Virus record (IMG/VR): IMGVR_UViG_3300022594_000015
Coordinates: 1 to 36,438 of that record
Direction: 5' to 3' (one strand)
DNA from: a virus
DNA: 36,438 bases
Shown: piece after piece, positions 5,299 through 14,922 of the stretch
Position numbering within the stretch: the first letter of the stretch is position 1
Layout of the letters: each line of letters starts with the position of its first letter
Position numbers and translations under genes: made by a program
The notes under the pieces: generated by a model
The model's database searches: none
Told to the model about the DNA's origin: nothing
Seen by the model: only the letters and a program-made list of their open reading frames with translations

Positions 5299-6254
5299 AG
5301 ATCTTTAACTTCAATGATTTTGCCCCTGAACTGGATCGTCTCATTGGTCTCAACCATAGCAAGCTCAGGCATTAACAACTTACCGTTTGCAAACGTCAGG
5401 ACGGCAAACCCAGAACGCCAATTGACAGGATTCTCCTCTAGGTAATCACGGAACTGTGGGCCATAAATGCCTGCAAGCGTTCCGGTATCAACTCCGTACC
5501 GAACCCCGTTATAGTCTGTATAAGGAGAGACTTTAAGACTGTGTAAGTGACCTGTAACCATTGTCACCCCCGATTGCACGGTATTATTGTGAGTTGCATG
5601 GATACCGCCTTTATTCCTATGCTTTACCACCACATTCTCATTCAACCAAACAGACCAACATGGTTGCCAAGCAGGGAAATGGTCTCTAAGGCTAAAACCT
5701 TTGATGTGCTCATACTGGGGCGCATTGGCAGCTAAAAACGTCTCAAACCGCGCATCATGGTTGCCTAAAGGCCAAACCAAGCGGACATTGTGCCTAGCAG
5801 CTTTAGCAACCTCTTCAATCTCGCCCATGTTGGCCTCGCAAGCCTTTAGCTCTTCAATTACGCTAGGAGACTTTGCCCAGCCGATTTTGGCGTGTCGGCT
5901 AATCAAACTTCCATCGAAGATGTCACCATTTGCAATGACAGCTGTGGGTTTGAGTTCCGCAATAGCCCAGAGTAATCCTTGAAACGCGGTGGATCTAATG
6001 CCAGGCCAAAAGTGAGCATCTGAGAATACGATTACAGTTCCGTTTTCTACGCCCAGATTAATCTTTCTTTCAATCTGGTGAGCATCGTGATAGCTTGGTC
6101 TCATAATGACGTCTAGCTTAGATTCCATGCGGTTTCGCCTCCTAAGTACAGATCTTAAATTTAATCCTGTTACCGTTGCAATTTTGCTACAACTTTGATA
6201 TTTACCCCATAACTCAATGAATTCTTGGTCAGATATTTTTTTTGCGCCAGTCAT
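5295..6254 (-). CDS. calcineurin-like metallophosphoesterase with N-terminal HTH
   Basis: The 319-residue protein has the full set of binuclear metallophosphoesterase motifs: FSDAHFWPG (Asp79, His81), NGDIFDG (Asp111), LGNHDARF (Asn165, His166), a later GGIHATHNN segment, and TGHLHS. The first ~45 residues form a helix-turn-helix-like unit (SCSKIATVTGLNLRSVLRRR), so it may bind DNA. Possible substrates are nucleic acids or nucleotides; the sequence does not decide. It overlaps the HExxH gene by 26 bp upstream and the 45-residue membrane protein by 4 bp downstream, so the three form one leftward operon. Confidence 0.88.
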   Translation of the reverse strand: MTGAKKISDQEFIELWGKYQSCSKIATVTGLNLRSVLRRRNRMESKLDVIMRPSYHDAHQIERKINLGVENGTVIVFSDAHFWPGIRSTAFQGLLWAIAELKPTAVIANGDIFDGSLISRHAKIGWAKSPSVIEELKACEANMGEIEEVAKAARHNVRLVWPLGNHDARFETFLAANAPQYEHIKGFSLRDHFPAWQPCWSVWLNENVVVKHRNKGGIHATHNNTVQSGVTMVTGHLHSLKVSPYTDYNGVRYGVDTGTLAGIYGPQFRDYLEENPVNWRSGFAVLTFANGKLLMPELAMVETNETIQFRGKIIEVKDL

Positions 6255-13404: not shown

Positions 13405-14922
13405 ATGGCAAATAATTTGCTAACGATCTCCAAGATCACTAACGAAGCGTTAATGGTTTTGGAAAACGAACTCACATTTTCAAGCGAAGTAAACCGTAAC
13501 TATGACGATCAATTTGCTGTGGTATAAACGCCTGCCTCAGTTTTTACTGTGAATTTTGCGTTGAGGTGGCAAGATTGGTAACACAGTAAACGTCCGTAAA
13601 AGATCAGGTATGCGGACGAAAAAGTTTCTCTGATTGACTTGGAAACCTTGCGGAAGGTGACAGGGGGCAAGCGAAAGCAGCCTGAACGACTAAGTGAGAA
13701 ACCCCGAAAGGGATGCGATAGTCTGAACAGCGATATAACCTAAAAGAAGTCGCTGAGTTTGAGCCGAAGAGCTTGAACCGCCAGAAATGGTCAGTAGCCG
13801 AAAGGTGAAAGTAACAGAATGAGACCTGGAAGATTTATTGGCGCAACAGGGCCTGCACTTTCCGTAGAGGACTTTAACGAAACTTCGACCCCAGTAACAC
13901 TTTCTACTCAATTTCAAGTGGCAACTCAGTTTACCACTCAGGATTTAGCATTAAGTTTGGATATGTTCTCTGACCGCGTGTTAAAGCCTGCTGTTGCAAC
14001 AATCGCTAACAAGATTGATCGTGACGGTTTGACAATGGCTGCTCTTCAAACAGCAAACATCGTTGGTACAGCTGGTACACCTCCAACAGGTTTAATCACC
14101 TATTTAACAGCTGGTGCTTATCTTGACGCTGAAGGCGCACCAAGAGACGGACGTAGAGCTTGTATCGTTGAGCCTTTCACATCTGCAACAATCGTTGACA
14201 GCTTAAAAGGTTTGTTCATGCCACAAGAAGCCATTGCCGAGCAATACCGTAAAGGTTTGATGGGTCGTGATTCTGCTGGTACAAACTGGAAACTCGACCA
14301 AAACGTTGTGAGCCAAACATTTGGTTCATACTCAGGTAACACATTGTCTGCTGACAACACAGCGTCTTCTGGACAAATTGGTTATTTGACAAGCGGTTGG
14401 GCACAGTATTCCACAATCCAGATAAAAGCATCTGCTTCAAGCACATTGAACGCTGGTGACGTAATCCAGATTGCTAACCTGTACGCAACTAACCCACAAA
14501 ACCGTCAGGCTTATGGTTCAGGCAAACTCCGTAACTTCGTTGTCCAATCTACTACAACAGTAGGTACAGGCGCAACAAATATTACAGTTAGCCCTGCAAT
14601 CATCATCGGTGGTCAGTTCCAGAACACAATCGTAACTGGTACAACTTCTACAACAGCAGTTGTTACACCATTTAACAATACTGGTGTTCTATCTCCACAA
14701 AATATGCTCTTCCACCGTGACGCTTTTACCCTGGCGGTAGCAGATTTGGAGCTGCCAGAGGGAGTCCATTTTGCTGGTCGTGCAAGCGACAAGGAAGTTG
14801 GTTTGTCAATTCGTGTGGTACGTCAGTACACCATTAATAACGACTCAATCCCAACAAGGCTTGATGTTCTTTACGGATGGGCGCCTCTATACCAAGAACT
14901 TGCTTGCCGTATTGCAGCCTAA
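13405..14922 (+). CDS. P22-like major coat protein gene, split by a group I intron and a ~40-nt interruption
   Basis: Part A (13405-13524, 40 codons) starts MANNLLTISKITNEAL and reaches NRNYDDQFAVV before an in-frame TAA (13525). Part B (13565-13597) reads GGKIGNTVNVR. Part C (13822-14922) begins RPGRFIGATGPALSV and runs to the stop, 366 residues. Joined, they give about 417 residues (P22 gp5 is 430) with the family pattern YDDQFA..GaKIG.t.nVR.PgrF. The group I intron (13598-13821) accounts for the B-C split. The A-B split (about 13525-13564) is unexplained: no reading frame passes through it. AAAAGGAAAT precedes the ATG. The ATG at 13819 straddles the splice site and is not a real start. Confidence 0.9.
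13525..13590 (+). other. interruption of the coat reading frame with a potential pseudoknot
   Basis: Forty bases (13525-13564) separate coat parts A and B, beginning with an in-frame TAA and ending with TGA; removing 40 or 43 nt restores the frame. Stem 1 pairs 13530-13539 with 13562-13570, 9 bp with one bulged U. Stem 2 pairs TTTACTGTG (13543-13551) with CACAGTAAA (13582-13590), 9 perfect bp, crossing stem 1 in H-type pseudoknot order. Stem 1 brings 13524 and 13565 close together, as expected for a bypassed or excised segment. A too-small second intron, a bypass element or an assembly error are all open. Confidence 0.6.
13598..13821 (+). ncRNA. group I self-splicing intron in the coat gene
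   Basis: The 5' exon end GTCCGT (13592-13597) pairs with guide GCGGAC (13612-13617), with the required U-G wobble at the splice site (P1). CAGGT (13605-13609) pairs with ACCTG of the 3' exon (P10). The intron ends with G13821. TTTCTC (13625-13630) pairs with GAGAAA (13696-13701) as P3. GACTA (13688-13692) pairs with TAGTC (13719-13723) as P7. CCC-GAAA-GGG (13703-13712) is P8, and AGCGA/TCGCT forms P9. Splicing joins CGT to AGA in frame. At about 224 nt it has no room for a homing endonuclease. Confidence 0.9.

Follow-up and report, generated by a model that had tools for sequence, protein, structure and literature searches.

A viral coat gene with two interruptions

The window analyzed here (the whole 36,438-nt stretch), a virus record of IMG/VR, carries portal, terminase and coat genes of the P22-like type (Pfam), and it raises the question of how an intact coat protein could be produced from a gene whose frame is broken near its start. 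The coat frame opened at 13405 ends after FAVV at a TAA (13525), and the conserved sequence GGKIGNTVNVR restarts at 13565 in a different frame. This break, described in an earlier sequence-only reading, was confirmed by the frames and by about 78 related coat genes that are uninterrupted. That reading had also matched the removal of 40 nt to the family spacing; indeed, in each of these genes FAVV and RPGRF lie exactly 30 nt apart, with the 40 nt missing. It had considered that intact relatives might lack GGKIGNTVNV at this place; the intron-less ones in fact read ..FAVV-GGKIGNTVNVRRPGRF.., with exactly the 40 nt absent.

On the + strand, the gene starts with exon 1 (13405..13523; MANNLL...FAV + GT), encoding a P22-like coat N-terminus that is unbroken in intron-less relatives. 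It is followed by a core-less 40-nt insert, hereafter the mini-intron (13524..13563), delimited by its absence from relatives, by its variants and by covariation. A 34-nt middle exon (13564..13597; GGKIGNTVNVR), whose coding sequence is conserved in relatives, separates it from a 224-nt group I intron (13598..13821). Exon 3 (13822..14922; RPGRF... to stop) matches Pfam P22_CoatProtein (E 6e-27). The predicted spliced coat mRNA junction is GCTGTGGT/AGGTGGCAAG, and the protein stretch crossing the mini-intron junction is DDQFAVVGGKIGN.

Insertions at the same place were found in at least 49 locus entries, which represent at least 47 distinct contigs (lower bounds that include the window, entry L001; L074 and L227 are one contig), from many samples and with at least 23 distinct sequences, so the insertion is not an assembly artefact. 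Whether related phages exist both with and without the insert, a point raised by the earlier reading, is answered by the same comparison: these contigs carry it and the roughly 78 coat genes lack it. Insert lengths are 32, 33, 34, 40 and 41 nt and fall into all three frame classes; a constraint to one frame class, suggested by the 34- and 40-nt inserts, was dropped because inserts of 32, 33 and 41 nt exist. The first 50 N-terminal residues of the interrupted coat remain conserved.

The mini-intron carries group I splice guides and no core

The borders had initially been placed at 13525-13564. The length of 40 nt stands, while the best position is one base upstream (13523/13524 and 13563/13564), with an identical protein. 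With these borders, U is the last base of the 5' exon and G the last base of the insert, in group I fashion. The two crossing stems noticed previously correspond to P1 (13516-13523 x 13534-13541) and P10 (13529-13533 x 13564-13568). The 5' strand of this P1, called P1m (GCUGUGGU; 13516..13523), comprises the last 8 nt of the 5' exon and pairs with the internal guide sequence of the mini-intron (GCCUCAGU; 13534..13541) through 7 of 8 pairs, with a U.G at the splice site and one UxU mismatch that is constant across the coat family. The P10 guide strand, CGCCU (13529..13533), is contiguous with the P1 guide and pairs with AGGUG at 13564-13568. One contiguous guide for both exons is a hallmark of the group I internal guide sequence. 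A P10 formed from the P1 loop has been described (PMC6155759).

A third helix, H3, was not part of the earlier reading. Its 5' strand (13543..13559) pairs in the unconstrained minimum free energy (MFE) fold as 13543-13551 x 13582-13590 and 13552-13559 x 13569-13576, so that the middle exon contains the 3' strand of H3 together with the 5' strand of P1i, the P1 of the full intron. The 3' splice site of the mini-intron lies in the H3 apical loop (13560-13568), and H3 stops one base before GUCCGU, the 5' strand of P1i. No P9.0 pairing was identified for the mini-intron 3' end.

The 40-nt element thus follows the group I splice rules and has a P1/P10 guide. A catalytic core of its own (P3-P9) is absent: at 28-46 nt, the mini-introns of all sites described below are too short to hold one. 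By its sequence features, the element is not itself a group I intron and appears to act like a group I splice-site module served by another core. The possibility that the 40 nt are a mere part of the downstream intron was ruled out, the 34 nt between them being conserved coding sequence.

The neighboring intron has a group I core

The full intron (13598..13821) is absent from relatives and possesses its own P1, P10 and P3-P8-P7 core. P1i (13592..13617) pairs 13592-13597 (GUCCGU) with 13612-13617 (GCGGAC), the 5' site shows the U.G pair, and the 3' end is a G (..AATG). P3 (13625..13701; 13625-13630 x 13696-13701) is paired in 96% of cells and shows 25 double-change cells in the intron family versus 5.8 +/- 2.3 in shuffles. 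P7 (13688..13723; GACTA at 13688-13692 x TAGTC at 13719-13723) encloses the 3' strand of P3 and the P8 hairpin, which sits between its two strands, and is invariant in the intron family as searched. The Rfam group I model gave no match to the full intron at its gathering threshold, nor at E values up to 10. As the core topology is present, we read this miss as a limit of the model. The window intron stands with 162 loci in a large family of phage introns of roughly 200-250 nt with a group I core, to which the Rfam group I model is blind in the window at E up to 10.

Relatives of the full intron occupy several other coat-gene positions (L066, L045, L015, L052 and MW202674 among them), and the family is therefore probably mobile. 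Between the window and L002, identity reaches 99.7% over the mini-intron, middle exon and intron versus 86-89% in the flanking exons, as if these three parts had traveled as one unit. No homing endonuclease was recognized by Pfam among the 29 window ORFs tested. A scan of bacterial and archaeal genomes gave two clear members of the intron family, in which no mini-intron was seen on inspection.

Several related loci were observed on the way. In the public phage record of L083 (MW202674.1, 2037-3552), the intron-interrupted coat gene is annotated as a hypothetical protein flanked by two P22 coat proteins. Two loci, L066 (about 2507-2740) and L178 (about 460-700), have a full intron of this family after GCCGT, a few bases upstream of the mini-intron site; the mini-intron may derive from it or be related to it. 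The coat gene of L194 (- strand, about 1360-1640) has another kind of group I-like intron after GATCAGT, and the guide of that intron, ATAAGCCTGCTGAT, resembles that of the mini-intron. L124 and L145 hold family members whose core contains a short ORF in its P6 region.

The two introns occur together and the guides covary with the exons

A full intron lies exactly 34 nt downstream of each coat-family mini-intron whose contig runs past the intron start (these co-occurrence counts are lower bounds); four entries (L214, L284, L304 and L380) are too short to judge, their contigs ending within 80 nt. Among the matches listed and within the patterns searched, no coat intron was found at the mini-intron site without a mini-intron.

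Covariation was analyzed in 15 distinct coat-family variants, with P1, P10 and H3 compared as equal-length segments (MAFFT misaligned H3 when applied to whole mini-introns). In these variants 91% of the P1/P10/H3 cells pair, and both sides have changed in 31 cells, against 9.1 +/- 2.2 after shuffling and 0-5 with the partners slid. The register of H3 is the best pairing among four offsets, which favors H3 somewhat, and the slid controls give the margin; the helix register and the scoring scheme are of our own choosing, and variants within one site are related by descent. The guide base (A, T or C) tracks the third base of an Ala codon (GCT, GCA or GCG), the P10 strand follows the third position of the Gly codon that comes after the junction (second pair GU, UA, AU or CG), and H3, whose proximal part covaries, tracks the third bases of Thr and Val codons. 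Since these exon changes are synonymous, the insert follows its host exon at the RNA level.

Mini-introns are predicted at four other gene sites

For 141 distinct full introns, we scored the preceding 180 nt for this arrangement: P1m, a contiguous P10, a terminal G and an H3 ending before P1i. In dinucleotide-preserving shuffles (n=2820) the score was 43 at the 99th percentile, 47 at the 99.9th and 50 at most. A score of at least 46 was reached by 20 introns, and in every one the exon is truly interrupted and becomes open after removal. These introns fall at the coat site (A) and at four other gene places scoring 47-52; score and null are of our own making, and sites C, D and E are represented by one sequence each.

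Site B (FYG/TYVQINEQV) includes L114 and L091 and, from a pattern scan, at least L424, L420, L415, L411 and L422; its covariation amounts to 12 double-change cells versus 4.9 +/- 1.7. The junctions are PIEQS/RWNQSN at site C (L158), RIAY/YGNLICSAPG at site D (L103), where the junction falls within a codon, and FAG/KYIPVPLE at site E (L203). Insert-less homologs with an unbroken protein were found for B (L184, L117 and others), C (L176), D (L180, 100%) and E (L089 and L180), and at all four sites removal of the predicted mini-intron restores the protein that is uninterrupted in these homologs. No relatives of the L158 intron end turned up in a pattern scan. Among other short-exon cases inspected, L229 looks like an intron close to a start codon, and L124 and L145 look like introns that contain an ORF.

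The unconstrained MFE structure of all 29 sequences from the five sites is the tandem series of hairpins P1m-H3-P1i. In each of the 29 folds the 5' site maps to the P1m loop or its immediate neighborhood, and the 3' site to the H3 loop or its edge; P10 would therefore be a loop-loop contact.

A shorter insertion was seen in the coat genes of L135 (about 5914-5976, +) and L186 (- strand), where 11 frameshifting nt interrupt the sequence as GACGAT/CTATAAACCTG/CAGTTC. Both genes have a full intron after ACACAGT. The insertion holds no guide; the 5' exon CGACGAU pairs with GUUGUCG in the downstream exon, with a U.G at the site, and the MFE fold again gives three tandem hairpins. This is possibly a mini-intron whose guide lies in the exon.

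Proposed splicing by a shared core, and its alternatives

We consider it highly probable that the 40 nt are a core-less "satellite" group I-type intron, excised by the ribozyme of the neighboring intron, which then splices itself. It is likewise probable, if slightly less so, that the five sites belong to a natural class of non-autonomous group I introns, which would carry guides only and be spliced by the core of a neighbor before the neighbor splices itself, with a shared helix fixing the order. The borders, guides, covariation, obligate co-occurrence and restored proteins can be read from the sequences. The neighboring core as catalyst in cis we infer strongly; the order of the two reactions and any benefit would be further readings of the same data.

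In the unspliced RNA, three hairpins would precede the core: P1m with the 5' site of the mini-intron, H3 with its 3' site and P1i with the 5' site of the full intron. They would take the place of P1-P2-P2.1, as in a group I intron whose 3' splice site had been shifted into the P2 loop. The neighboring core would take in P1m and cleave after U13523; G13563 would then act as the terminal G in the P7 site, and U13523 would be ligated to A13564. Loss of the mini-intron would remove H3, whose 5' strand departs with it, and P1i could then dock as P1. The core would finally excise itself (13598-13821), leaving an intact coat mRNA. H3 may in this way fix the order of the two reactions, which would matter because the mini-intron would be left stranded if the full intron excised itself beforehand. 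One conceivable benefit is selfish, the gene being no longer able to afford the loss of the full intron alone; it is also conceivable that the mini-intron serves as a shield against a homing endonuclease.

The mini-intron could instead be a group I-type substrate on which a core acts in trans, either that of the full intron once it has been excised or one on a different transcript. P1 docking in trans works for engineered group I ribozymes (PMC6155759), and with the guide inside the mini-intron any compatible core might serve. However, H3 ends directly before P1i at all five sites, which points to a cis, unspliced arrangement, and the coat-family spacing is fixed at 34 nt; we regard splicing in trans as unlikely.

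That a protein system, such as a tRNA-type endonuclease or an RNase plus a ligase, takes out the 40 nt is very unlikely. Such systems typically remove short segments whose borders are structured, but in the 29 folds the sites lie at the P1 loop edge and in a hairpin loop, with no bulge-helix-bulge of the archaeal type. The U and G rules and a contiguous P1/P10 guide would not be expected either, and the co-occurrence with a ribozyme would be left unexplained.

The sequence-only reading had offered RNA excision or ribosome bypassing. Excision is upheld by the group I-type guides, whereas bypassing of the 40 nt, as in T4 gene 60 or the mitochondrial byp elements, we find scarcely believable. The stop codon does directly follow a GTA and the gap is structured, but the insert lengths span three frame classes, a TGA precedes the resumption point (GGT), which does not match a Val take-off codon GTA, and a group I intron is tied to the insert in all testable contigs. 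The GTA pair at 13522 and 13586, suggested as take-off and landing sites, does not help, since its sole matched GTA (13586) would delete GGKIGNT. In structure the element is a group I splicing module common to the sites, not a hairpin of the T4 gene 60 kind.

A mere defect (assembly error, dead gene or a coat split between two starts) is hardly credible: the insert holds stops and a second ORF starts at 13819, but the element is present in at least 47 contigs, its structure is maintained by compensatory change, the N-terminal 50 residues are still conserved, and the ATG at 13819 stems from the common 3' end of the intron.

Comparison with known systems

To our knowledge, all natural group I introns carry their own core. 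In the literature searched, where subscription journals were thinly covered and absence is weak evidence, we found no report of a natural core-less segment excised by a group I ribozyme; only engineered ribozymes were described as removing a separate segment that lacks a core, and the natural arrangement proposed here would seem to be without precedent.

The engineered trans-excision-splicing (TES) ribozymes (Bell, Johnson and Testa 2002; review, PMC6155759) excise short segments outside themselves, and the mini-intron with its neighbor would be their natural counterpart. As proposed for the mini-intron, a group I core removes a short outside segment ending in G through P1 and P10, an anatomy that fits our folds. 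TES is bimolecular, with the guides on the ribozyme, whereas here the arrangement is natural, lies on one transcript, has its guides inside the excised segment and would involve a core that later excises itself. Spliceozymes, engineered group I ribozymes removing 64-100-nt introns (PMC4094466), similarly take a core-less intron from a pre-mRNA. They select the 3' site through P9.0 and P9.2, in contrast to P10 plus H3 in the mini-intron.

Among phage group I introns (T4 td, SPO1, Twort and Bastillevirinae; PMC11878797), architecture and splice rules are those of the full intron at 13598-13821. Several introns per gene and small exons are also known, and Bastillevirinae phages show a small exon between two introns, with exon skipping (PMC11878797). 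Each of these introns owns a core, and a core-less partner is reported in none that we found. T4 gene 60 and the byp elements share with the mini-intron a short, structured, stop-containing break in a coding frame, but they need matched take-off and landing codons, which the mini-intron lacks; it has group I guides and an adjacent intron.

If our reading is true, the neighboring intron is a two-target group I ribozyme and offers a ready-made model for ordered splicing by a single RNA. It would also account for phage genes that look frameshifted and are split or dropped by gene callers.

Degenerate group II introns and the group III introns of Euglena have lost catalytic domains and are thought to depend on a core elsewhere. 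They are group II kin, whereas the mini-intron is of the group I kind and lies within a few tens of nucleotides of the core. If natural and recurring, this arrangement would show how introns come to depend on a shared catalyst, and would parallel, among group I introns, the transition from self-splicing to splicing by a shared core that has been proposed for the origin of the spliceosome.
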